A stretch of 40,000 nt of DNA from assembly GCF_022968795.1 (NCBI RefSeq), contig NZ_JALJRB010000025.1:1-40000 (forward strand), given 5' to 3'. Position 1 is the stretch's first letter. Every line of letters starts with the position of its first letter. The translations under genes were made by a program, and so were the position numbers. The DNA is from Desulfatitalea alkaliphila. GTDB taxonomy: Bacteria > Desulfobacterota > Desulfobacteria > Desulfobacterales > Desulfosarcinaceae. Positions 1-19,191 of the stretch are shown here, in pieces. The notes beneath the pieces are model-generated. The model was not told the origin of the DNA. It searched no databases and worked only from the letters and a program-made list of their open reading frames with translations.

Positions 1-345
1 GACCACCTGCAAATCGAGGGCCGGAAAAACGAGATAGCCGCAACCGCATCACAAATCCTGTCGCACCTAATACGCCTTGAAAGTCTGTTGGACAGCAGAA
101 AAACCTTTAAGCGCTTCCACGCCGGCCGTCGTCACAACGAGCGAGCGCTGGTGCTGGCGCGTGGCGTAAGGCGGGTTTTTGAGCGCTTTGAGCTGCCCGT
201 ATCGGCCGACCGTGCCGGGTTATACCACCAAGCACTTTGCATCACCCTGGCGGCCATACAAACACTTTGCAAGGACGACATCCTTCCCGCCAGCGACCCG
301 AGCCGCCTAATAAAGCAAGTCATGGACGAAACCTGTCAAAAATAA
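1..345 (+). CDS. Unknown protein, 3' part only
   Basis: The reading frame is open from the first base of the window to a TAA at 343-345, so this is the C-terminal part (at least 114 residues) of a longer gene. A TTG at 88 could be an internal start but no convincing ribosome binding site precedes it. The visible protein is basic and mostly helical, with an Arg/Lys/His-rich patch near residues 31-45 (KTFKRFHAGRRHNER) and no motif I recognise. Its position ahead of the small HTH gene, on the same strand as the other element genes, suggests it belongs to the accessory element. The function is unknown. Confidence 0.5.
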   Translation, partial: DHLQIEGRKNEIAATASQILSHLIRLESLLDSRKTFKRFHAGRRHNERALVLARGVRRVFERFELPVSADRAGLYHQALCITLAAIQTLCKDDILPASDPSRLIKQVMDETCQK

Positions 346-356
346 ACAGGTTTCGT
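326..356. repeat. Perfect 11-bp inverted repeat over a stop codon
   Basis: ACGAAACCTGT at 326-336 and its exact reverse complement at 346-356 flank a 9-nt loop that contains the TAA of the upstream gene. No T-run follows on either strand, so a plain intrinsic terminator is unlikely. Lying 68 bp before the small HTH gene, it could be an operator or a transcript-stabilising hairpin; this is inference. Confidence 0.5.
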
Positions 357-423
357 ATGTAGAACACAAACACTCCCGCCTTTTATATTGGCGTCAACTT
401 GAATCAATTCCCAAGGAGACGCC

Positions 424-615
424 ATGGAAAAGCAATCCCACCTTACGACCAACGAAGCCGCCCGCGCCCTGGGTGTGCAGGGTTCGACCATCCGGCGTGG
501 ACTTTGCGTCAATGGCCATTACATGGGCTTGGTGCCCGTGAAGCTGCCGAACCATCGCCTTTTGTGGCCCGCGAAGGCAGTGGCGCAACTACTCCAACCT
601 GGCGAAAAGGAGTAG
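424..615 (+). CDS. Small helix-turn-helix protein, AlpA/excisionase-like
   Basis: A 63-residue protein with a strong ribosome binding site (AAGGAG at 413-418, 5 nt before the ATG). Residues about 8-30 (TTNEAARALGVQGSTIRRGL) read as a MerR/AlpA-type helix-turn-helix, followed by a short wing-like stretch ending with a conserved-looking LLWPAKAVAQLL. Proteins of this size and fold act in P4-like satellites and prophages as AlpA regulators or excision factors. The stop is only 2 nt before the next start, so it is co-transcribed with the downstream genes. The exact role (activator of integrase, excisionase or DNA-binding accessory factor) cannot be told from sequence alone. Confidence 0.6.
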   Translation: MEKQSHLTTNEAARALGVQGSTIRRGLCVNGHYMGLVPVKLPNHRLLWPAKAVAQLLQPGEKE

Positions 616-617
616 AC

Positions 618-1091
618 ATGTTTCGCGATGCCCACAACTACCAACAGTATTTTAGCGGCCGGCCCGACAAGGAAACCTACAACCTTTTACACCAACTACG
701 CACCCACCCTCGTGGCGGGGCGGTCATCGGCGCTGCCAAGGGTGAAGCGGTCTTCGACGGCTTTTTGGCCCGCCACGGCAAGCTGAAGCATACTGGTGGG
801 GCGGTCTGCCCCCTGCGCTTGGCGGGCCGCCATTGCCGTGGCATGCGCTGCGTTTGCAACATGGACCCGCTTCTTGCGGTTTTCGACCACCGCGAACTGT
901 GGATAGCGGATGGGCGGGCGGCAATTTTCACGGCGCATCCGTATCAGCTCCCCGGCGACCAGGCCGCCGCCCTTTTTCTGTTCTGTAGGCGGCATGGCCT
1001 GGAAGCGATGATTTCCACCGATTCGTGGTACTTCCATGGTCAAACACTGCTAATCGAGATCACGCCAGCTAATCGCCAGGGGGCCGTTTAA
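618..1091 (+). CDS. Unknown Cys-rich accessory protein before the replication gene
   Basis: A 157-residue protein. I chose the ATG at 618 because AAAAGGAG lies 5 nt upstream and it follows the previous stop by 2 nt; the same frame is open further upstream but overlaps the HTH gene. Residues 64-80 hold four cysteines (C64, C73, C78, C80), followed by a D-H pair at 90-91 and a Trp at about 95, which could form a metal site. No membrane segment or signal peptide is visible. Its TAA shares its last base with the ATG of the replication gene, which implies translational coupling and suggests a replication-related job. I do not recognise the family. Confidence 0.6.
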   Translation: MFRDAHNYQQYFSGRPDKETYNLLHQLRTHPRGGAVIGAAKGEAVFDGFLARHGKLKHTGGAVCPLRLAGRHCRGMRCVCNMDPLLAVFDHRELWIADGRAAIFTAHPYQLPGDQAAALFLFCRRHGLEAMISTDSWYFHGQTLLIEITPANRQGAV

Positions 1092-2686
1092 TGTCGGCGC
1101 CGGTGCAGCAGCTTCCCCGAGAAATTGAGGCCGAGAAGAGTATTTTAGCGGCGGCCTTGGTGGACCCGTCCACGGCGCCCACCATAGCCGATTTACTGGC
1201 GCCAGAAGACTTCTATGTCACCGACCACCAGCATATCATGGGCGCCATCTTCGCCTTGATGGTGGACGGCAGGGCCACCGACCTATCCACCCTCATGGAA
1301 GAACTACAGGCGGTCGGCCACATGGAAAACGGCATGGGCGCCTACCTGGGCAAGTTGCTGGAGTGGCCCAGCGCCACCGACATCCCCGCCACTGCCGGCC
1401 GAATCAAGATCGCCGCCGCGCGCCGTGCGATCATCAGCGCCGCCACCCGCCTTGCGCAAAGTGCCCGGGTCGAAACCGACATCGACGACATCCGGCGCAA
1501 AACGGAAGACTTGTTCTCTTCTGTCGAGCTGGCACTTGACGATAGCACTTGTGGATGGAAGCCTTCCACCAGGCCGCCGACCGCGGCGCGGATGCGCATT
1601 ACCGGAGAAGAACTTGACTCGGCGGAATTGACGCCGAAGTGCATCGTGCAGAGCTACCTATACGGCGACACCGCTACATTAGCTGCACCTGGCGGGACCG
1701 GAAAAACCTCCACCGCCATTTATGAAAAAGTTTGCATCATCCTTCGTAGGCCACTGTATGGCTTGGCGGTTGCCACCCCCGGTTGGTGTTTGTTTGTGAC
1801 CGCTGAGGATAGCCGCGAAATCATCATCGCCAGATTGCGCGAAATCATGGATGCAATGGATCTGACCGCCGAAGAGCGGCAGACCGTCATGGATCGCTTT
1901 GCGGTCTGGGACGTAACCGGCGAGCAAGTGCGCCTGATTCGCGCTGTGGACGGCAACGTGGTTCTAACCAACCTGGCGGACGACATCATTCGGGCCTACC
2001 GAGACGACCCACCTGTACTGGTGACGTTCGACCCCGCAATAAGTTTCGGCGCTGGTGAAAGTTTTGTGAACGATAATGAACAGGGTCTGGTTACCGCTGC
2101 CCGCCGGATCGTGCGGGGCTTCGCCAAGGCCTGCTGCGTGCGCTACATCACCCACACCGGCAAGGCACCCGCCCGCGAAGGGCGACTCGACCAATACACA
2201 AGCCGAGGCGGGTCCGCATTAAGCGATGGAGCACGAATGGTTGCGGTTCTACAGCCCTGGAAGCCCAGCGACAGCCGCCACCCGCCAGCCGGATGTGTGG
2301 AGACTCCCGGCGCGACCATCTCCATACTGGCCCGCCCGAAACTGTCATACGCTGCGCCTCAGCCGCTGATTTGGATTCGGCGAAGCGGGTGGAGCTTCGA
2401 ATACTTCACAGAGACTAAAGTATCGATTGAAGAACGGGAGCGCGCCCTCTTCGATCAAATTGAACGCTTCCTGGCTTCCGAGGTGAGACAGGGGCACCGG
2501 CACAACAAAACATCCTTGGAAACCGCATTGCCCGATCTTAAGCGAGCCGATGTGCGCACCGCCATCGAACAGCTCATGGCAAGGGGCCGGATCATCGAAC
2601 AGGACCTGCCTCCCGAGGAGCGCCAAGGCCGCCGAAAAACCTATTTGTCGGTTTTGGCGGAATACGGCGGAATGGAGGATAAATGA
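1091..2686 (+). CDS. DnaB N-domain / RecA-fold replication ATPase of the element
   Basis: A 531-residue protein. Residues 8-130 resemble the N-terminal domain of replicative helicase DnaB (LPREIEAEKSILAAAL...). A RecA/RepA-type NTPase core follows, with Walker A GGTGKT at 201-206 and a Walker B-like hydrophobic strand (VLVTFDP) at about 315-321. The C-terminal about 100 residues read as a winged-helix module. Known relatives with a RepA-like ATPase core serve as replicative helicases of plasmids, phages and satellites. Start and stop both overlap their neighbours (TAATG upstream, ATGA downstream). The last coding bases contain two copies of the 8-bp repeat described at 2656-2832, which places a probable origin at the end of its own gene. 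It lacks the canonical C-terminal helicase domain of DnaB, so it is a fusion or divergent form. Confidence 0.75.
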   Translation: MSAPVQQLPREIEAEKSILAAALVDPSTAPTIADLLAPEDFYVTDHQHIMGAIFALMVDGRATDLSTLMEELQAVGHMENGMGAYLGKLLEWPSATDIPATAGRIKIAAARRAIISAATRLAQSARVETDIDDIRRKTEDLFSSVELALDDSTCGWKPSTRPPTAARMRITGEELDSAELTPKCIVQSYLYGDTATLAAPGGTGKTSTAIYEKVCIILRRPLYGLAVATPGWCLFVTAEDSREIIIARLREIMDAMDLTAEERQTVMDRFAVWDVTGEQVRLIRAVDGNVVLTNLADDIIRAYRDDPPVLVTFDPAISFGAGESFVNDNEQGLVTAARRIVRGFAKACCVRYITHTGKAPAREGRLDQYTSRGGSALSDGARMVAVLQPWKPSDSRHPPAGCVETPGATISILARPKLSYAAPQPLIWIRRSGWSFEYFTETKVSIEERERALFDQIERFLASEVRQGHRHNKTSLETALPDLKRADVRTAIEQLMARGRIIEQDLPPEERQGRRKTYLSVLAEYGGMEDK

Positions 2687-2832
2687 TCACCACGACCATG
2701 CCCATTCAGCCGGCCCCTTTATTCTGCCGCCGTCTAGGAAAAGATTCGGCGGCAGAATTGAGCCGCCCGATCTTTCCCCTGTTCCTGTTCCCGCCGGCGA
2801 AACCCGGCGGAATACGGCGGAATTGGCGGAAT
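2656..2832. repeat. Iteron-like GGCGGAAT repeats, candidate replication origin
   Basis: GGCGGAAT occurs at 2656-2663, 2666-2673, 2806-2813, 2816-2823 and 2825-2832. The 18-mer GGCGGAATACGGCGGAAT appears twice, exactly 150 bp apart, with copies inside a block at roughly helical spacing (9-10 bp). One more 8-mer sits inside the replication gene at 1621-1628. The repeats straddle the 3' end of the replication gene and the following 335-bp stretch without a convincing gene. Such direct repeats beside a replication ATPase gene are typical of iteron origins; function here is inferred. Confidence 0.5.
2721..2758. repeat. Perfect 12-bp inverted repeat between iteron blocks
   Basis: ATTCTGCCGCCG at 2721-2732 and its exact complement at 2747-2758 enclose a 14-nt A-rich loop. 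The outer part of the arms resembles the inverted form of the GGCGGAAT repeat with one added base. A smaller hairpin, CCGCCG/CGGCGG, lies at 2791-2810. No T-run follows. The arrangement (iteron pair, hairpin, iteron triplet) looks like an origin or control region. A frame is open across 2683-3021, in phase with the terminase-like gene, but its product is low-complexity and Arg-rich, so I treat it as non-coding. Confidence 0.5.
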
Positions 2833-3021
2833 TGGATTTCAGAGGTTCAGGGCGCTGCACTGCACCGCCGGTTGGCGGCAACCCTCAATCGAGGCGTGGG
2901 TCCTATCTCCGGGTGGCGCCCAACGGTTATCCGCAGCGCGACCGGCGCGTCCAGTGAAAATCGAGAAAAATCGAGGACAAAGGACAGGTCGAGGACATTT
3001 AAGAAACAGGAGCAAAGCAAA

Positions 3022-3663
3022 ATGTCAAATGAATTCAAAAGTATATCAGCAGTGGCAAAGTATTTGAAAAATAGGGGTTTTTGTCTGCCCGGTTCCAAAA
3101 CACCGATAGCCCGAAGTAAAGTGTTTTCCGATGTAAAGCGTGGTTTGTTTGTCTTTTCGGACCCTTCCGCCATAACCCAAGCCGAGGTCGATGCTTATTG
3201 CGTGGCCGCAGGGCTGATCCAGATGGATCGTGATCGAAAGGCCCCCGGCGCCGATCCAAAAGTATTCACCGACAAGGCCGCCGCCCAAGCGCGATTGATG
3301 GCCGCCAAGGCCTCGAAGGCCGAACACGAGTTGGAAGCCCTGCGTGGTCGGTACCTCCTAAAAGACGATGTCCGCCTTGAGCAGGCTTTGAAGATCGCCA
3401 TTTTCGAATCTGGCTTTAAGACCCTGGTCCGCACCCGCGTTGAAGACATGATCCGAATGGTGGGTGGCGATCCCGCCAAGTCGCGGATGCTGTGCGACTG
3501 GTTTTTTTCCGAGATCGATAGTTTGCTGGCCGCCATGGGCGACATGCCCGAATTGGACATTCGCCTCACGAAACGGGGTGACCGGCCGGCCTGGTCCCTG
3601 GATGGCCTGCCGGACCAGCAAGACGCGACCGCCACTGAGTCACCGCAGCGCGAGGACGGTTGA
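3022..3663 (+). CDS. Candidate terminase small subunit (Nu1-like)
   Basis: A 213-residue protein. The frame is open back to 2683, but the ATG at 3022 has GGAG about 10 nt upstream and gives a clean N-terminus. Residues 5-60 look like an HTH/winged DNA-binding domain (ISAVAKYLKNRG... through ITQAEVDAYCVA). A Lys/Ala/Glu-rich helix (residues 85-110) and a helical domain (120-180) follow, and the tail is polar. This order matches the lambda Nu1 type of small terminase, which recognises the packaging site; similarity is by architecture, not by a strong motif. Directly upstream are short repeats (AAAATCGAG twice, TCGAGGACA twice at 2955-2998) that could be its binding site. It could alternatively be another phage DNA-binding protein. 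No large subunit is visible nearby. Confidence 0.5.
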   Translation: MSNEFKSISAVAKYLKNRGFCLPGSKTPIARSKVFSDVKRGLFVFSDPSAITQAEVDAYCVAAGLIQMDRDRKAPGADPKVFTDKAAAQARLMAAKASKAEHELEALRGRYLLKDDVRLEQALKIAIFESGFKTLVRTRVEDMIRMVGGDPAKSRMLCDWFFSEIDSLLAAMGDMPELDIRLTKRGDRPAWSLDGLPDQQDATATESPQREDG

Positions 3664-3751
3664 GGTTGTTGGATTTGGTGCCCCGAACCGGACAGGGTGT
3701 CCGCCGCTGTCCGGTCTGTCCGCAATAATCGATTTTGAAAGGAGATACAGC

Positions 3752-4015
3752 ATGGAAGGAGCACGGCAAACCGGTGTGGCAATGTGGGTGTTGGATGATC
3801 CTAAGCCCGATTATCAGAATGGAGTCAAGCGTCTACTCCTTTCGTTCACGCAAGCCGTGGCCGCCCTGCTGGACGCCGGGGAGCGCGATTTGTTGGAGCA
3901 GCTGCTGCGCGTCATGCAGGACAACTGCGCGACCACCCGGGCCATGCTGGAAATGATCGACGACGGTGCCACCATAGGTGATGTGCGCCGATATTTGGAG
4001 AACAACCGTGAATGA
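3752..4015 (+). CDS. Small helical protein of unknown function
   Basis: An 87-residue protein. The ATG at 3752 is preceded by AAAGGAG (3738-3744) at a spacing of 7 nt. The frame is also open further upstream but would overlap the previous gene in another frame. After a short polar start the protein is almost entirely amphipathic helix (LLLSFTQAVAALLDAGERDL, then LLEQLLRVMQ). No transmembrane segment and no known motif. It lies between the small terminase candidate and the zinc-ribbon gene, and its last 8 bases overlap the next start, so it is part of the same transcript. Possible roles include a regulator or a packaging accessory factor; neither is supported by a motif. Confidence 0.5.
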   Translation: MEGARQTGVAMWVLDDPKPDYQNGVKRLLLSFTQAVAALLDAGERDLLEQLLRVMQDNCATTRAMLEMIDDGATIGDVRRYLENNRE

Positions 4016-4286
4016 ACGCGAAGTATTACAGATTGGGTGCTGTCCGAAGTGCGGCGCGGGGAGAGTGGGTGTCACGTCCACCCGGCGCCCGTATCGTCAC
4101 TACCGTTGCCGGGTGTGCGGTTCCCGGTGGAAGACCTTGGAAGTAGTCCAGGCAGACGCCTGGCTGCCGGCACTGCTCAATCTTCTGATGCACCGGGGAG
4201 AGTTTGCCACCTTGCCCGCGGAGATGAAAAAGCAGATTGCCGGGATCGTCTATTTGTACCTAACGGGCGCTAAATCTGTAATTTGA
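4008..4286 (+). CDS. Zinc-ribbon protein, possible phage transcription regulator
   Basis: A 92-residue protein starting at GTG 4008, which has TTTGGAG about 7 nt upstream and overlaps the preceding gene by 8 bp. Residues 12-15 (CPKC) and 34-37 (CRVC) form a two-CxxC zinc ribbon; the arginine-rich spacer and the CGSRWKTLE that follows resemble the zinc ribbon of NrdR. The C-terminal half is a plain helical segment. Small zinc-ribbon proteins such as Ogr/Delta activate late genes in P2/P4 phages, and this one sits just upstream of the capsid gene, so late-gene activation is an attractive but unproven role. Cys spacing differs from classical Ogr. Confidence 0.55.
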   Translation: MNEREVLQIGCCPKCGAGRVGVTSTRRPYRHYRCRVCGSRWKTLEVVQADAWLPALLNLLMHRGEFATLPAEMKKQIAGIVYLYLTGAKSVI

Positions 4287-4347
4287 ATGGTTTGCCCCTG
4301 AATTTCCCACATGATACTTTTAAGAGAAAACCGAGAGGAACACACCA

Positions 4348-6222
4348 ATGGATAGAATGAACTTTCGATCACTGCCGATAGGCACGGGGGCGCCAGCGAG
4401 CCTGGACGACAAGAGTAGAAGTGTGGAAGTAATAGCGGCAACGGAGCAACCCGTGGCCGTTTTTGATTATGAACAATACGAAATTATTGATGAGGTTCTA
4501 CTGATGGCCGGGTGCGAGATGCCCGGCAACCGTCAGGTGGTGCTTTTGGACACGCACGACCGAAGCAATGGAACCGGCAGCGTCTTGGGATCGTTTCGTG
4601 GCATGACCATATCGAACGATCAGCTTGTGGGCCGGGTGCATTTTTCGACCAGGGCCGCCGACGCCTGGGAGAAAGTCCGCGAAGGCCACTTGACCGATGT
4701 GTCCATCGGCTATCGGCCGGTGCAATCCACCTGGGTGCCCGAAGGGGAGACAGCCGTGGTCAAGGGCCGATCCTTCACCGGGCCGGTGAAGGTCACCACC
4801 CGTTGGAGAGTCAAAGAGCTTTCGATCTGTCCTATTGGCGCCGACGAACTTGCCAAAACAAGATCACAACCCCCGGCAACCGGGGAGACGAAAGGAAATG
4901 TATCTATGACACCCGAAGAAATCAGGGCCGAGGCCCAACGAGTAGAACGCGAGCGCGTGACCGAGATCCGCGCCATGTGCGACAAGTACGACCTGCCCGA
5001 CCTGGGCAAAAAGCTGGTGGCCGATGGCACCGACCTGGACCAGGCCCGCAAGGCTGTTTTGGCGGAGCTGGAGAAACGGCCCCAACCCAACGTGCCGCAT
5101 CGGACGGACCCGATCTACACCCACGGCGCCGATGCCAGCGACAAACGAAATGCCGCCATCGTGGACGGCCTGACCCTTCGGGCCGGTGTTCACCTGGATG
5201 CCCCGGCCCCCGGTGCCAGCGAGTACCAGGGCATCGACCTGCCCTCCCTGGCCCGTGAGTGCCTTGTGGCCGCCGGCGTCCGCGTGTCCGGAAGGAGCAA
5301 GAGCGCATGCGTCGGTGAAGCCCTTCAGCTTCAGACCCGTGCCATGATGACGCCTGATTTTCCGCTGCTGCTGGCCAACGTGGCCAACAAGGTGTTGCGT
5401 GAATCCTTCCAAACCGCCCCGTCCACATTCCAGCACTGGACCCGGAAAGGATCGACCAGCGATTTCAAGGAGAACAGCCGGGTGTCCCTGTCAGCCTATG
5501 AGGGCTTGGACGAAATCCCCGAAAACGTGCCTTACAAATACGGCACCCACACCGAGATGGCCGAAAAATTCAGCGTCCTGACTTACGGCAAGTTGTTTGC
5601 CTTGACCCGGCAGGCCATCGTCAACGATGACCTGGGCGCCCTGACCAACATTCCACGGGCCGCCGGGGCCGCTGCCAAGCGCCTGATCAACAAGTTGGTC
5701 TACGATCACGTTCTTGCCAACGGCCTGATGAGCGACGGCGTGGCCCTGTTTCACGCCGCCCACGGGAATACGCCCGAAAGCGGCGGCGCCCCCGGCGATA
5801 CGACTCTGGATACGGCCCGCGTCGCAATGCGCACCCAGACCGGCCTTGCCGGCGAGGTCCTGGGCATCGCCCCGAAGTTTCTGATCGTCAGCGCCGAAGG
5901 AGAGACAGTCGCCGATGTGCTGTTGAACAGCTTGGCATCTACCGCCACGGACCTGAACTCCGGCGTGAAAAACCCGTGGCGCGGCTTGGAATTGCTGGTA
6001 GAGCCCTATCTGGATGCCGCCAGCGCAGCGAAAAAGTGGTTTTTGACGGCCGATGCCCGCGCCTTCGATACCGTGGAGGTCTGCTACCTCGATGGACGCG
6101 ATCAGCCTTACCTTGAAACCCGCGACGGCTGGACCGTGGACGGCGTGGAGTACAAGGTGCGCCTTGACGTGGGCGTCAAGGCGGTTGACTGGCGGGGGTT
6201 GTTTTACAACCCCGGCGAATAG
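4348..6222 (+). CDS. Prohead protease fused to Mu gpT-like major capsid protein
   Basis: A 624-residue protein with GAGAGGAA upstream of the ATG. Residues 1-165 match the HK97-type S78 prohead protease: His70 (LLDTHDRSNG), Ser119 (LTDVSIGY) and Glu157 (RVKELSI) fit the catalytic triad. Residues 187-245 are a charged helical, scaffold-like segment. Residues about 330-624 look like the major head subunit of Mu-like phages (for example KLFALTRQAIVNDDLGALTN, LFHAAHGN, and the C-terminal VDWRGLFYNPGE). The protein would form the capsid shell and mature it. An ATG at 4906 (Met187) is preceded by AAAGGAAA, so a separate scaffold-capsid product may be made from an internal start. No portal, large terminase or tail gene follows; a terminator stands 130 bp downstream. 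Confidence 0.85.
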   Translation: MDRMNFRSLPIGTGAPASLDDKSRSVEVIAATEQPVAVFDYEQYEIIDEVLLMAGCEMPGNRQVVLLDTHDRSNGTGSVLGSFRGMTISNDQLVGRVHFSTRAADAWEKVREGHLTDVSIGYRPVQSTWVPEGETAVVKGRSFTGPVKVTTRWRVKELSICPIGADELAKTRSQPPATGETKGNVSMTPEEIRAEAQRVERERVTEIRAMCDKYDLPDLGKKLVADGTDLDQARKAVLAELEKRPQPNVPHRTDPIYTHGADASDKRNAAIVDGLTLRAGVHLDAPAPGASEYQGIDLPSLARECLVAAGVRVSGRSKSACVGEALQLQTRAMMTPDFPLLLANVANKVLRESFQTAPSTFQHWTRKGSTSDFKENSRVSLSAYEGLDEIPENVPYKYGTHTEMAEKFSVLTYGKLFALTRQAIVNDDLGALTNIPRAAGAAAKRLINKLVYDHVLANGLMSDGVALFHAAHGNTPESGGAPGDTTLDTARVAMRTQTGLAGEVLGIAPKFLIVSAEGETVADVLLNSLASTATDLNSGVKNPWRGLELLVEPYLDAASAAKKWFLTADARAFDTVEVCYLDGRDQPYLETRDGWTVDGVEYKVRLDVGVKAVDWRGLFYNPGE

Positions 6223-6352
6223 GACAAAGACCGGCAGGCGCCCGTTGCCGCGAGGCGCGGGGAGGGGCTCGCAACTCCTTGTTCACGCCTGCCGTCTCCG
6301 GGCCGGCCGTCCTGGCCGCTTCCTATCGGCGGAGCTGGCGTCCGGTTATATG

Positions 6353-6380
6353 ATACCCCCGGTTCGGTCGCCGGGGGTAT
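6353..6380 (+). terminator. Hairpin terminator after the capsid gene
   Basis: ATACCCCCGG at 6353-6362 and CCGGGGGTAT at 6371-6380 form a 10-bp perfect stem with an 8-nt loop, followed by TCCTTTCCCC. It sits between the convergent capsid gene and the minus-strand gene ending at 6413, so it may serve both. A second inverted repeat, CGGCAGGCG (near 6231) with CGCCTGCCG (near 6288), lies just upstream. Confidence 0.65.
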
Positions 6381-6412
6381 TCCTTTCCCCTATAAACAAT
6401 GTGATGCAGGCG

Positions 6413-6721
6413 CTATTCTGATATTTCATCCCGCCGGGGGAAGGGCACCACTGTTGGGCCTTGTGAACGAGGGGTGTGGGTCCGGCGCTTCTTGGCGGGC
6501 TTGCTCGATGCCTTTGTCATCGCCTTGATTTCCTCGGTTTCCGTTTCGAGCTGGTCAACCTTGTCCTGTATGGCCGCTGCAGCAGCCTCAACCGACCGCA
6601 TTTGGTATTCTTGGATGACCCCGTGGTGGCAAGCGTCGATGTTCAACGCCAGCGTTCTTGCAAAATGGGTTTCCGATCCAAGCACATACGCCGCCTTTTT
6701 CAGTAGGTCGAAATCAAGCAT
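6413..6721 (-). CDS. Small HTH/coiled-coil protein, possible element regulator
   Basis: A 102-residue protein on the strand opposite to the other element genes. The N-terminal part (LLKKAAYVLGSETHFARTLA) resembles a Cro/YdaS-type helix-turn-helix; residues 40-70 form a predicted coiled coil (AAAAIQDKVDQLETETEEI); the tail is basic (SKPAKKRRTHTPR). Upstream of the start there is no usual ribosome binding site but a run of nine G (C9 on the plus strand at 6728-6736), 6 nt before the ATG. A structured RNA with its own T-run ends 19 bp before the start codon, which suggests regulation by termination or antisense pairing. A repressor or immunity-type role is possible; the family is not recognised with certainty. 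Confidence 0.55.
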   Translation of the reverse strand: MLDFDLLKKAAYVLGSETHFARTLALNIDACHHGVIQEYQMRSVEAAAAAIQDKVDQLETETEEIKAMTKASSKPAKKRRTHTPRSQGPTVVPFPRRDEISE

Positions 6722-6739
6722 AGTCAGCCCCCCCCCAAT

Positions 6740-6810
6740 AAAAAAATCCCGAGCGGTGCTTACGGCCCTAAACAGCCGTCCAGGCCCTCACGGGTGCTGG
6801 CCACTCGGGA
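6740..6810 (-). ncRNA. Structured leader RNA, C4/CI-antisense-like candidate
   Basis: On the minus strand, TCCCGAG-type arms (6804-6810 with 6747-6753) form an outer 7-bp stem enclosing two hairpins: one with stem 6762-6766/6775-6779 and an 8-nt loop, and one with stem 6780-6783/6797-6800. Seven T follow (6746 to 6740), so transcription would end here. The first loop (6767-6773) is exactly complementary over 7 nt to 6868-6874 further upstream in the same transcript. An outer stem with two hairpins, a terminator and an upstream complementary target is the known layout of C4 antisense RNA (phages P1, P7) and of P4 CI RNA. A 12-codon frame (ATG at 6823) overlaps it. Assignment to C4 is inference from shape. 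Confidence 0.45.
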
Positions 6811-6937
6811 AAATGATATTTTCCATGGTGCGACAGATAATACAGAGCGCTCACGCGGCCCCCTGCGGTTTAGGTTTTAAGCAAGACTAGCATGCCACCA
6901 AAGCGGCCTGTGTGTCAATGCTTCGCAGCGCTCCATG

Positions 6938-6962
6938 GTCGCCCTCCGGGGCGGCTTTTTTT
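6938..6962 (+). terminator. Intrinsic terminator, plus strand
   Basis: GTCGCCC (6938-6944) pairs with GGGCGGC (6949-6955) around a TCCG loop, followed directly by seven T (6956-6962). No plus-strand gene is evident immediately upstream, so it may insulate the element end or end a short RNA. Weak frames on both strands cross 6890-7220 but look non-coding. Confidence 0.6.
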
Positions 6963-7054
6963 GTAGCAGCTTCGGTTGCCATCGGCGGCCGATCAACATC
7001 TTTTTTTTCATCGACATCCATTTTTACTTTTTTATTTTCGGGGGTTGGGTTGCT

Positions 7055-7075
7055 CCCGACATTTGTCGGGTTTTT
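7055..7075 (+). terminator. Second intrinsic terminator, plus strand
   Basis: CCCGAC (7055-7060), loop ATTT, GTCGGG (7065-7070), then TTTTT. Together with the hairpins at 6938 and 7188 it makes three terminator-like structures in 270 bp between the element and the tRNA gene. Confidence 0.6.
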
Positions 7076-7180
7076 GCCTCGCAATCTTTCGGCGCGCCCT
7101 CTGTTCAATCGTCCGCGGCGGCGCCGGGGGGTATCGACCCAATCTGCTTACACCAGCGCTTACACGGGCCGGTTACCCAA

Positions 7181-7220
7181 AAAAATAGGGTTACGGTTTG
7201 CGCCGTAACCCCTTGTTTTT
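7181..7220 (-). terminator. Bidirectional terminator of tRNA-fMet
   Basis: GGGTTACGG (7188-7196) and CCGTAACCC (7203-7211) form a 9-bp perfect stem. On the minus strand it lies 12 nt past the tRNA 3' end and is followed by a T-rich run (complement of the A-run 7179-7185), so it ends the tRNA transcript. On the plus strand TTGTTTTT follows, so it can act both ways. Confidence 0.7.
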
Positions 7221-7222
7221 GT

Positions 7223-7299
<77 letters not shown>

Positions 7300-7345: not shown

Positions 7346-7701
7346 GATGTTTTTTGAGGCTTTTTCTTCGCCGGCGCAGGGGCCGGTTCGGCCAGTCGGC
7401 GAAGCCGGGTGACCAGATCCTTGGCTTCGATGGCTGTCATCGGTCCAGCGGCGGGGCCGATACGGACCTGTTTGCGGCGGTTGGTCAGGCCCCTGATGAT
7501 AGTGACGGCCGATTTGGGGCGGTTCAGGGCTTTCGCCAGCAGTTCGATGCATTGCTGATTGGCCGCCCCGCCCACCGGGGGTGCGGTCAGCTTGATCTTC
7601 AGGCTGTCCTGATGAAGCCCCACAATACCGGACCGGGAAGCGCGGGGTTGCACCTGGACATGGAAGGTGACGCCGTCGGGAGTGGTCTGGGTTTCAAGCA
7701 T
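7342..7701 (-). CDS. DUF167 (YggU) family protein
   Basis: A 119-residue protein of the conserved DUF167/YggU family: FHVQVQPRASRSGIVGLHQD at the start, KIKLTAPPVGGAANQQCIEL in the middle (the family signature APPVxGxAN) and the following RGLTNRRKQVRI strand. The family is widespread and small; its biochemical function is not established. The C-terminal Ala/Pro/Lys-rich tail (APAPAKKKPQK) is an extension. It overlaps the thioesterase gene upstream by 8 bp and is the last gene of the hom-thrH operon. Confidence 0.85.
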   Translation of the reverse strand: MLETQTTPDGVTFHVQVQPRASRSGIVGLHQDSLKIKLTAPPVGGAANQQCIELLAKALNRPKSAVTIIRGLTNRRKQVRIGPAAGPMTAIEAKDLVTRLRRLAEPAPAPAKKKPQKTS

Positions 7702-8113
7702 TGGCAGACCCGTTTTGACGCCGGATCAAGTCGCGCATGAAGCGGGGCGGACGGATCACCTTGCCGTCTTGATCGAGGAAGGCATGGCGCGTATGGCCCA
7801 CGGCATGGACTACCTGGTCGTCGGCGCTGGTGATGCGATAATCGATTTTCAGACCGGCTTTGATGGTCGGGTCGAGGGCGGCCTCGATGGCGAGCAGATC
7901 GTCATAGCGGGCGGGCGTCATGTACTTGCAAAAGGCTTCGGAGACGGGCAGCAGGATGCCCCGCGCTTCGATCTCCTTGTAGGCCAGGCCCCAGGCGCGC
8001 AGCAACTCGGTCCGACCGATTTCGAACCAGCGCAGGTAGTTGGCGTAGTAGGCGATGCCCATGGTGTCGGTATCGCCGTAAATGACGCGGTAGGGGGTGC
8101 GGTGGCTGAGCAT
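7694..8113 (-). CDS. Acyl-CoA thioesterase, YbgC/4-hydroxybenzoyl-CoA type
   Basis: A 139-residue hot-dog-fold protein. The start at 8113 gives MLSHRTPYRVIYGDTDTMGI, with the family motif YxDTDxMGxxYYANYLRWFE and its catalytic-type Asp at residue 14 or 16; the frame is open further upstream but that part overlaps thrH. The family hydrolyses short-chain or aromatic acyl-CoA thioesters in the cytoplasm; the substrate here is unknown. It starts 4 bp after thrH and overlaps DUF167 by 8 bp, so it is translated as part of the same operon. Confidence 0.85.
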   Translation of the reverse strand: MLSHRTPYRVIYGDTDTMGIAYYANYLRWFEIGRTELLRAWGLAYKEIEARGILLPVSEAFCKYMTPARYDDLLAIEAALDPTIKAGLKIDYRITSADDQVVHAVGHTRHAFLDQDGKVIRPPRFMRDLIRRQNGSANA

Positions 8114-12700: not shown

Positions 12701-12810
12701 GATGGCCTCGTAAAAAGTCCCAAAAACGGTGTTTTTGCAAATTGCCATCGTATAAATTTAGGTACTTACAGCGTCGAAAATTGAAAATTCCGACTTTTTA
12801 CGAGACCATC
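12701..12810. mobile_element. MITE-like element with 19-bp terminal inverted repeats
   Basis: A 110-bp unit bounded by GATGGCCTCGTAAAAAGTC (12701-12719) and a complementary copy at 12792-12810 with one mismatch (18 of 19). The interior is A/T-rich, contains no coding frame and differs in composition from its surroundings. ATTTT stands directly outside the left end and nearly so at the right, a possible target duplication. Size and structure fit a non-autonomous miniature transposon or a dispersed palindromic repeat. Confidence 0.55.
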
Positions 12811-12860
12811 AATTTTGGCAGTGATGCACAAAACCCAAGCTGGGTCTTGCCCCGTTGGCA

Positions 12861-12958
12861 ATCGAAATCGAAATCAGGGTCGCTATCGGAATGAAGCGAG
12901 CCGAGGCCTAAAACGGAACTGAATCGATTTTGATCCCGATAGCGATTTCGATTTCGAT
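12861..12958. repeat. Long interrupted inverted repeat of ATCGAA units
   Basis: The left arm (12861-12889) begins with two ATCGAA units and ends in CGCTATCGG. The right arm (12936-12958) is its reverse complement apart from a 6-nt insertion in the left arm. The whole can fold into a hairpin of about 98 nt. It lies in the tsaD-nagZ gap, which has no convincing gene. Confidence 0.55.
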
Positions 12959-13084
12959 ACGGCTTCACTTCCTTCATCGGTTGGAAAAAATTCCTGCCTT
13001 CAACCAAAGCCTATCCAAGCGAAATCCATGCACCCGATTATATACGTCCAGCCCTACTGCGTCACACGGCCGGGTACCCCCACC

Positions 13085-13155
13085 GTAGGGGCACGGCATG
13101 CCGTGCCTTCGCGGGCTGATCGGGCTCACCCGGGCACGGCATGCCGTGCCCCTAC
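13085..13155. repeat. Pair of 23-bp palindromic arms (GGCACGGCATGCCGTGCC)
   Basis: A 23-nt arm at 13085-13107 is perfectly complementary to 13133-13155; each arm itself contains the 18-bp palindrome GGCACGGCATGCCGTGCC. The spacer is 25 nt. Palindromes of this kind with GTAGGGGCACGGC borders are dispersed repeats in many bacterial genomes (from memory, not searched). Nothing that looks like a gene lies in 12596-13256; this and the two preceding repeats account for most of that gap. Confidence 0.65.
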
Positions 13156-13256
13156 GATGGGTGTAAGGCGCGATCCGTGGAAGGATCCACATGCTCGACC
13201 GCCCCCAACTCTCTATGTATATAGAAAGCATTCCCTATTTATTTAATCGCGAGCCC

Positions 13257-17409: not shown

Positions 17410-17615
17410 CGAGTCGGTGGAGGGTCCCTACCCTCCGCCGGCTTGGTTTTCGCCCGCCGTTTTGTGCTTTCTTGCCGGATACCTGGCCGCGTCTGTGACC
17501 ATGGATCTCTTCCGATGCGCCGACGGTTGACGCGCAAGGTCGCCATCGCTTAAATAGACGGTAGGGCTCGCGAAACAATAAATTTGCATTTTAGGCGCCC
17601 GGATTTGGGTCGGAT

Positions 17616-17689
17616 TGGCCCGATCAGCGGATTCAAAACCGGAGGCATAGCGAGCTATTCCGAGGATTATGAATCCGCTGATCGGGCCA
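17616..17689. repeat. Perfect 20-bp inverted repeat with nested hairpin
   Basis: TGGCCCGATCAGCGGATTCA at 17616-17635 is exactly complementary to 17670-17689. The 34-nt loop holds a second stem (ATAGC/GCTAT with CGGA/TCCG flanks). The structure of 74 bp resembles a dispersed palindromic repeat. It overlaps the 5' extension of the open frame of the next gene, which is one reason for choosing the later start there. Confidence 0.65.
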
Positions 17690-17767
17690 AGACGACCTGA
17701 AGCAGGGATGCATAAAAGGGGAGTTGTTTTTTCGCGAGCCCTTAGCGCCGATGGGAGGGCGACCACC

Positions 17768-19150
17768 ATGAGCCAGGACGATATCCGGCAAATTTCCGAT
17801 GCACTGCTGTACGCCCTGTTGGACAACCCCTACGAGAGCCTGATCCTGATCGATGCAGCCGGTATTGTCCGTTTCGTCAGCCACGCCAATGAGAGCGTCC
17901 GGGGTGTCAGCGCCCAAAGCGCCGTCGGCCGGCACATCAGCGAGGTGAGCCCCGACTCCGAACTGCCGCGCATCATCCGTACGGGCAAGGCGGAAATCGG
18001 CCACAGCCTGGTGCTGCGGGATCGGGAGCGCATTGTGGCACGCATTCCGCTGACCCGGGACGGGCAAGTGATCGGCGCCGCCGGCAAGCTGCTGCTCTCC
18101 AGTCCCGAGAAAGTCAAAGCCCTCTATCAGCGCATCGAAAGCTTGGAAAAGCAGCTCGATTATTACAAGTCGGCCTACAAGCAGATCTACGGCAGCCGGT
18201 TTACCTTTGACAACATCATCGGTCAAAGCCGCAAGCTGCAGGAAGCAAAGGCGCTGGCGCTTAAGGCGGCGCAGAACGATTCGTCGGTGATCATTCTGGG
18301 CGAATCGGGGACGGGCAAGGAGATGTTCGCCCACGCCATCCACATGGCCGGCCCGCGGGCCGGGCGTAATTTCATCCGCATCAACTGTGGCGCGATTCCC
18401 GGCGAACTTTTTGAATCCGAGCTGTTCGGCTATGAACCGGGGGCCTTTACCGGTGCCCGGCGTCAAGGCGCCGCGGGGAAAATCGAGTTGGGGCACAAGG
18501 GGACCGTTTTTCTGGACGAGATCAGCGAAATGCCGCTGCGCATGCAGGTCAAGCTGCTGCGGGTGTTGCAAGACAAGGTGGTGGAGCGCATCGGCGGCGG
18601 CAAGCCCCGGCAGATCGATTTCCGTATCATCAGCGCCACCCACCAGGATCTGGAGAGCATGATCCGGCAGGGCACCTTCCGTCTGGACCTGTTTTACCGG
18701 CTCAACGTGATGTTGATCCGTCTGCCGGCCCTGCGTACCATTCCCGAGGATATCCCATTGATCTTCAATGCGATTTTGGCCGATTTATGCCGCGCCGGCG
18801 GCCGGTCGGTCGTCGAGGTGCGCCCCGACGCCCTGGCGGCCCTCTGCGCCTACCACTGGCCCGGCAACGTGCGCGAATTGCGCAATGTGGCCGAGCGGGC
18901 GTTGGTGGTGGCCGACGGCCGACAGATTGATCGCCGGGACCTGCCCGGCGCGGTTCGGGGCGCGGCTGCCACGGAGGATGGCGCACCGCAGGCGGCGCAG
19001 CCGCTAAAAGCGGTTCTCGAAACGGCCGAACGGGAGTCCATTGTCACGGCATTGCGGCAAACCGATGGAAACAAGGCAAAGGCGGCCGCCTTGCTGGGTA
19101 TTCATCGAACCGGGCTGTACCAGAAGATGCATAAATACCAATTGCTTTGA
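17768..19150 (+). CDS. Sigma-54-dependent activator: PAS, AAA+, Fis HTH
   Basis: A 460-residue protein from the ATG at 17768, which has GGGAGG upstream; the frame is open to 17669 but crosses an inverted repeat. Residues 20-105 are a PAS sensor domain (LILIDAAGIVRFVSHANES). The AAA+ domain has Walker A GESGTGKE (178-185), the sigma-54 contact loop GAFTGA (225-230) and Walker B GTVFLDE (245-251). The C-terminus is a Fis-type HTH (GNKAKAAALLGIHRTGLYQKM). It activates sigma-54 RNA polymerase in response to a PAS ligand. The neighbouring acyl-CoA dehydrogenase gene carries a sigma-54 promoter and is the natural target. Confidence 0.93.
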   Translation: MSQDDIRQISDALLYALLDNPYESLILIDAAGIVRFVSHANESVRGVSAQSAVGRHISEVSPDSELPRIIRTGKAEIGHSLVLRDRERIVARIPLTRDGQVIGAAGKLLLSSPEKVKALYQRIESLEKQLDYYKSAYKQIYGSRFTFDNIIGQSRKLQEAKALALKAAQNDSSVIILGESGTGKEMFAHAIHMAGPRAGRNFIRINCGAIPGELFESELFGYEPGAFTGARRQGAAGKIELGHKGTVFLDEISEMPLRMQVKLLRVLQDKVVERIGGGKPRQIDFRIISATHQDLESMIRQGTFRLDLFYRLNVMLIRLPALRTIPEDIPLIFNAILADLCRAGGRSVVEVRPDALAALCAYHWPGNVRELRNVAERALVVADGRQIDRRDLPGAVRGAAATEDGAPQAAQPLKAVLETAERESIVTALRQTDGNKAKAAALLGIHRTGLYQKMHKYQLL

Positions 19151-19191
19151 TCCAACCACAGGCCGGATTACCTGCCCAGTGAACCTTTTTC

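Follow-up and report, generated by a model that had tools for sequence, protein, structure and literature searches.

Capsid-forming phage-inducible chromosomal islands (cfPICIs) are described as encoding a major capsid protein (MCP), a protease, a portal, connectors, the large and small terminase subunits (TerL and TerS) and an HNH protein (PMC10690885), and their capsids are reported to fall into three clades (PMC11389934); phage-inducible chromosomal minimalist islands (PICMIs), by contrast, are described as having no identifiable packaging genes (PMC10803314). Here we analyse an element at the start of a 40,000-nucleotide stretch of Desulfatitalea alkaliphila DNA (the window: bases 1–40000 of contig C18, from a source genome, G000, of 98 contigs and 5.07 Mb). 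The element resembles cfPICIs in being integrated, in carrying its own MCP, protease (here fused to the MCP) and TerS, and in having no tail genes, and differs from them in that the portal, head-tail connectors, TerL and HNH gene of the cfPICI set given in PMC10690885 were not found in it. Because cfPICIs as described there come with a complete set of head and packaging genes, we regard the element as a reduced variant, in line with the initial annotation, which had judged its gene set smaller than usual for a cfPICI. With a probability of roughly 0.7, we read it as an intact phage satellite of ~9.2 kb that brings its own shell and TerS and would take portal, TerL and tail from a helper phage.

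P4-like satellites carry the Sid, Psu and Delta genes for capsid size and transactivation. The element shares with this class (whose features are partly given from general background) a tyrosine integrase at a tRNA gene, an AlpA-like regulator (a weak match), its own replication protein and a size of ~10 kb, but has no Sid, Psu or Ogr/Delta family in the Pfam scan and carries its own TerS and MCP instead. As in the Staphylococcus aureus pathogenicity islands (SaPIs) and other PICIs described in PMC10690885, its own TerS would redirect packaging, whereas a complete MCP stands in place of a recognised capsid-remodelling protein. MulchRoom and MiniFlayer likewise have a satellite-encoded capsid and require a helper, yet are described as encoding a portal, a scaffold and TerL while lacking an obvious replicase (PMC10690885), the reverse of what is seen here. 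PICMIs, virion-encapsidated integrative mobile elements (VEIMEs) and tycheposons are similar as compact environmental satellites; PICMIs differ by their described lack of identifiable packaging genes (PMC10803314). In the openly licensed literature (titles and abstract beginnings, with the original cfPICI, SatelliteFinder, VEIME and tycheposon papers outside this scope), we found no description of satellites with MCP and TerS and no portal, and no paper on satellites in Desulfo-/Desulfobacterota.

The element and its right end are laid out in the window as follows.
1–345, plus strand: 3′ part of a reading frame truncated at the contig end; the open frame (94+ aa) at the edge of contig C32 probably supplies the 5′ part
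424–615, plus strand: AlpA/excisionase-like helix-turn-helix (HTH) protein, 63 aa
612–1091, plus strand: 159-aa protein for which family scans found no family
1091–2686, plus strand: replication protein with DnaB-N (PF00772) and AAA_25 ATPase (PF13481) domains
2656–2832, plus strand: five iteron-like GGCGGAAT repeats, a candidate origin
3022–3663, plus strand: TerS (P0004), 213 aa
3752–4015, plus strand: 87-aa protein between TerS and MCP
3978–4286, plus strand: zinc-ribbon protein, its start read by eye as probably the GTG at 4008
4348–6222, plus strand: prohead protease/MCP fusion (P0007), 624 aa, intact
6413–6721, minus strand: 102-aa protein with weak matches only
7146–7165, plus strand: paired GCTTACA repeats, candidate integrase arm sites, from the right-end alignment
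7178–7221, no strand assigned: terminator-like inverted repeat at the element end, from the same alignment
7222–7267, minus strand: attR core, 46 bp
7223–7299, minus strand: tRNA-Met (cat), from the tRNA call, the integration target

Nine element proteins were scanned against Pfam, phrog and curated (NF) family models. The capsid frame matched NF045541 (E 1.8e-171, over the cut-off), phrog_4523 (E 7e-160) and PF25209 (E 7.5e-53) and is intact, as expected for the protease-capsid fusion proposed in the initial annotation; the replication protein, predicted to have DnaB-N and RecA-like folds, matched DnaB-N (E 3.6e-18) and AAA_25 (E 1.3e-16). Iteron-like repeats were also recovered, five of the eight GGCGGAAT copies in the window falling within 2656–2832 (2 of 100 shuffles reach eight copies window-wide). 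None of the nine proteins belonged to a TerL, portal, connector, HNH or tail family, and the absence of large terminase, portal and tail genes noted earlier thus holds for this set. Two smaller predictions stood in part. For the AlpA-like HTH protein, the matches to HTH_17 (E 0.028) and excise (E 0.0088) lie under the curated cut-offs, but at DNA level its gene is 76% identical to the counterpart in a sister element; the zinc-ribbon protein has the CPxC/CxxC motif but only weak family matches (best phrog_10675, E 4.6e-4). A role of P0006 as an Ogr/Delta activator was considered and is not claimed, as there was no such Pfam match.

The small terminase candidate is weak on its own family match (phrog_57, E 4.4e-4 only) and is strengthened by its relatives. 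P0004 gave 38 matches in 32 of 389 genomes, 30 of which were made into loci; among 28 of these (leaving out the window's own, L261, and that of G090, L288, in both of which an MCP comes next), a TerL match lay within ~1.5 kb in 23. In one such locus (L050, genome G002), a protein 34% identical to P0004 over 182 aa is followed by a GpA-type TerL (phrog_15, E 1.3e-82), and a portal and a protease-MCP fusion are also present. Because its relatives adjoin TerL, the identity of P0004 as a TerS is supported. Of the other five loci, L326, L327 and L328 have TerL at wider range, and L329 and L330 none by the models. The P0004-type TerS genes of these two (L329 14484–15272; L330 9415–9993) have no TerL, portal or MCP match in 19.9 kb, and L329 also has an integrase match. 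P0004 had no match among phage records, and P0007 had relatives in 112 of 50,697, the 15 listed being records of 27–86 kb. No solved structure matched P0007. P0003, tried as a marker, matched nothing but itself at E <= 1e-20 across 291 genomes from the order.

The tRNA gene reported beside the element is confirmed as tRNA-Met (cat), the label 'initiator' coming from the cat anticodon only. The right limit given earlier as 7222 is corrected, since the attR core overlaps the tRNA gene. The left end and integrase do lie outside the window, as had been said, but what ends at position 1 is contig C18, not the element. An integrase search of the source genome turned up an integrase at the edge of C32. 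Read as the reverse complement of C32:1–12000 (L048), this contig gives in order chromosomal genes, attL, a tyrosine integrase (436 aa; phrog_1, E 3.6e-35) and an open frame cut by the edge. The leftward extension suggested in the initial annotation therefore yielded an integrase and a direct repeat of the tRNA 3′ part, both on C32, rather than a complete prophage; no head or tail phage gene was seen by reading among open reading frames (ORFs) of at least 90 aa in the last 4.5 kb. The attR core is an exact copy of C32:1967–2012, the 3′ half of tRNA-Met. The C32 and C18 edges have only four bases in common, with which the cut frames are in phase (by hand). C32 is likely the left neighbour of C18, the two being joined only by att, arm sites, spacing and frame; if they abut, the element measures 9,233 bp core to core. 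On C32, paired GCTTACA repeats begin 203 nt away from where the attL core starts, and the distance in the sister element is likewise 203 nt; the pair occurs at both ends in all five elements examined, and aligned right ends place it just inside attR in the window element, the sister element and those of SURF_4, G006 and G108. The five best named integrase matches comprise four to Desulfobacteraceae, Desulfobacterales or Desulfosarcina and one to a deltaproteobacterium; the C32 flank showed no synteny match with relatives in nine loci. The sequence thus shows an element integrated at tRNA-Met by a tyrosine integrase, with exact att repeats, that carries its own replication protein, TerS and protease-capsid fusion.

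The sister element lies on contig C2 of the same genome and reads, on the minus strand, integrase, 188-aa protein, AlpA-like protein, 194-aa protein, O-like initiator, DnaC-like loader, TerS, MCP and tRNA-Arg. It is bounded by a 53-bp att repeat and measures 9,559 bp. Its integrase is 80% identical to that of C32, and the integrase, AlpA gene and end sequence are the parts found to be common to both elements; its TerS (PF05119, E 1e-6, over the cut-off) and MCP (PF05065, E 5.8e-51) are of families different from those of the window element. No TerL was found in the C2 proteins scanned. Four solved structures are distant matches of the C2 MCP, one of them named major capsid protein Rcc01687. 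A gene of 79–203 aa directly 3′ of a PF05119-type TerS was also observed in C2 (L003 reverse complement 12746–13210), L323 (11846–12457), L335 (4941–5432) and L322 (15798–16037); in the first three, it has by eye a common G-x-RP stretch followed by a tryptophan.

The integrase was then used to search named genomes. Of 191 confirmed stretches, the 80 best were taken with 10-kb flanks, in which much larger integrase elements would not show; records of the window itself may be missing from this set. Only one of these loci, L076 in Desulfobacteraceae SURF_4, has an MCP by the models used. At 9,932 bp it carries a TerS (PF05119, E 5.2e-9), an HK97-type MCP and a DnaG-type zinc ribbon protein, and sits, going by genes identified by eye, at the same tRNA-Arg/tadA/purA site as C2. 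The same layout in the window, C2 and SURF_4 elements counts for the satellite reading. Repeat-bounded sizes, available for 27 of the 80 loci, were 3.7–11.1 kb. As L076 alone has an MCP, most of this integrase family is without one, and the family was rejected as a marker of capsid satellites. Two tRNA-Met elements with the same integrase (L072/L078 and L071/L077) were seen, one of 8,566 bp with TerS and no MCP match and one of 7,655 bp with neither, and a same-integrase locus, L079, has a TerL match downstream (17485–19170; terL2 model, E 8e-30).

Searching 389 genomes of the order with the C2 MCP gave 20 loci in 19 genomes. Wider regions were taken for 15 of these and for C2, the other four having <= ~1.5 kb per side; TerL and portal models covered two families each, other families being looked for through Pfam scans of some large proteins and by inspection of the ORF lists. 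Ten of the 20 loci, seven of them viewed with at least 17 kb around, have no portal or TerL match: C2 itself, G070 (L311), G270 (L314), G219 (L316), G137 (L318), G341 (L319), G169 (L320), G107 (L321), G215 (L322) and G266 (L323). The other ten are phage-like: nine have a portal or TerL match (G059 twice, G299, G298, G075, G366, G002, G022 and G362), and the tenth, G294, breaks off at the MCP and was judged by eye to be phage on the strength of its downstream genes. L314 (5.4 kb), L320 (6.9 kb) and L321 (5.6 kb, cut near the MCP) are short contigs. Integrases matched PF00589 in L311, L319, L320, L321 and L323 and our own integrase model only in L316, L318 and L322; none was seen in L314. Scanning every ORF gave TerS matches in L311, L314 (weak, E 1.8e-4), L318, L319, L322 and L323, and the large proteins include DnaB-N/AAA_25 proteins in L319 and L322, a D5-like protein in L323 and a Prim-Pol protein in L318. 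By subtraction, att-bounded sizes are 9,982 bp for L311, 9,069 bp for L319 (a two-contig genome), 10,438 bp for L318 and 16,877 bp for L316; L323 has only a 19-bp repeat, and no att repeat was found for L322. Six intact att-bounded elements thus measure 9.07, 9.23 (if C32 and C18 abut), 9.56, 9.93, 9.98 and 10.44 kb. In all, genomes other than G000 yielded 11 further MCP loci without portal or TerL, of which one is decayed and four lie on contigs <10 kb.

Among these is the 9,689-bp contig of G090 (L062), which is also in IMG/VR as L156 with a 100% identical MCP. It encodes a P0004-type TerS (20% identical to P0004, E 3e-10), a protease/HK97 MCP and an AAA_25 protein, together with an 85-aa gene and an integrase-like frame with no Pfam match; no terminal repeat of 15–199 nt was found. 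At 4178–4336, 3′ of its unrelated MCP, lies a 54-codon stretch like the P0007 C-terminus, apparently left behind by a former capsid gene and a possible trace of a capsid swap.

Searches of viral contigs (a record type, which implies nothing about virion origin) gave nine counted as the same kind of element, without portal or TerL, one being the genome locus contig L156 and two (L337 and L338) apparently one element. An alignment of the five MCPs of a satellite-only clade (see below) found 325 relatives, of which the best 80 were kept. The top eight of these (L335–L342; MCP identity 52–61%; 7.7–9.7 kb) have no portal or TerL on any ORF; all but L340 (7/8) have a TerS match, and L335, L337, L339 and L340 have integrase matches. 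A 99-bp terminal repeat marks L342 (9,640 bp) as circular; its 441-codon MCP frame runs intact through the join, and it has no integrase match. An HNH-like frame was seen by eye in L342 at 7540–7893, just 5′ of its TerS. Identity drops to 42% at the ninth-best contig, and the remaining 72 (L343–L414) have a portal or TerL match in 51 and none in 21; of five of the latter that were read (L348, L349, L352, L362 and L373), L348, L352 and L373 resemble ordinary phages by eye. With the L062 MCP, 74 of the best 80 of 99 viral contigs have a portal or TerL match, the six without being L156 and five with the MCP region <~0.3 kb from a contig edge. With the SURF_4 and C2 MCPs, 20 of 25 viral contigs have a match, and in the other five the match to the query or the MCP frame starts <~1 kb from an edge. 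Outside the top eight, a portal or TerL match is the usual finding in each of the three sets. L250 and L253 are portal-less by the models but have only ~0.6 and 1 kb 5′ of the MCP.

A tree of 31 hand-chosen MCPs was then built with IQ-TREE (unrooted, long branches flagged), with 11 labelled satellite and 20 phage, G294 being labelled phage by eye. The label changes six times on the tree, with at least five changes forced by starred branches, and the MCPs of G341, G169, G107, G215 and G266 form a satellite-only clade (support 99/93). The tree indicates that MCPs were recruited repeatedly onto satellites. The window MCP belongs to a different family (PF25209) and stands outside the tree, and so would be a further recruitment.

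These results are consistent with the following course. With a helper active, the AlpA-like protein and integrase would excise the element, and the replication protein would copy it from the iteron region. TerS would steer the helper's TerL to satellite DNA; satellite MCP and protease would form their own shell, sized for ~9–10 kb, on the helper portal, and helper connectors and tails would finish the particle. The initial annotation's satellite reading is thus supported; the supply of TerL, portal and tail by a helper is, as it was there, something we infer.

Several observations weigh against this satellite reading. The element is known from its sequence, its helper, particle, excision and transfer all being putative, and the working of a foreign shell on a helper portal is an assumption. 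On C5 of the same genome, a contractile-tailed prophage (~54–89 kb or beyond; L332–L334), reached via one sub-threshold portal match, carries TerL (phrog_2), portal (phrog_2739), MCP (phrog_2522), sheath (phrog_23) and baseplate genes and is a possible helper, but not an obvious partner, because its TerL, portal and MCP are of other families; a helper search of the genome with PF04466, PF05876 and PF03354 gave no match. P0007 had no relatives among viral contigs, 79 of the 80 integrase-family loci examined have no MCP, and TerS was not found in L316, L320 and L321 (three of 13 genome elements) or in viral contig L340. L316 is decayed, with an internal stop in its MCP. The reach of the TerL and portal models counts here too, as do four large proteins (two in L311, one each in L336 and L342) that match no Pfam family.

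Decayed prophages often retain partial head gene sets, and the elements might by chance be such prophages that kept TerS and MCP; the L316 stop and the three genome elements with no TerS detected would fit. Decay is nevertheless improbable given the exact att sites, the intact frames, the own replication and integrase genes, the like sizes and a circular relative (L342). Moreover, the same gene set has been assembled from different TerS and MCP families, and the MCP frames of C2 and G070 are both intact at 53% identity. P0007 as a lone remnant without kin, which the initial annotation had kept in view, was rejected once C2, SURF_4 and other elements had been found. A cfPICI whose remaining head genes fall in the unassembled gap between C32 and C18 is highly improbable: the element does sit at an unbridged contig break, but the open frames at both edges are in phase with the four-base overlap, and C2, L076, L311, L318 and L319, each with both att sites on one contig, also have no portal or TerL.

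An unlikely but more substantial alternative is that the MCP acts as a size or interference factor, co-assembling with or poisoning the helper capsid in the role of P4 Sid or of the scaffolding proteins of SaPIs, with TerS redirecting packaging. Some classical satellites are described as pairing a capsid-remodelling protein with TerS (PMC10690885), and repeated recruitment of phage MCPs could follow changing helpers; yet the window MCP has its full length and a fused protease, presumably more than a simple poison requires, and the tree has a diversified clade of five MCPs found in satellites only.

Several genomes in the order also hold single genes ~42–51% identical to the protease part of P0007 (~residues 1–215), in some cases two to a genome (L053 9519–10289, L055 9377–10288, L057 11792–13117 and L058 9163–10254). 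They stand in chromosomal settings with no phage genes seen by eye, and are possibly domesticated prohead proteases.

On balance, we lean towards the satellite reading describing a separate strategy, in which only the shell and the DNA-recognition subunit are swapped and the helper's portal, motor, connectors and tail are kept, and which would have been reached repeatedly through different MCP and TerS families and have its own satellite-only MCP lineage. Known capsid-encoding satellites bring a full head factory and others reshape or use that of the helper; a class with shell and TerS would stand in between. If true, this would imply that shell proteins are exchangeable on a foreign portal, and it poses a testable structural question, that of shell assembly and packaging on another phage's portal and motor. 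It also gives a search rule, an MCP and a TerS with no portal or TerL within 9–10 kb, for satellites that are likely counted as prophage remnants. The presence of similar stripped-down elements in other bacteria suggests a mode of phage hijacking that is so far little known.

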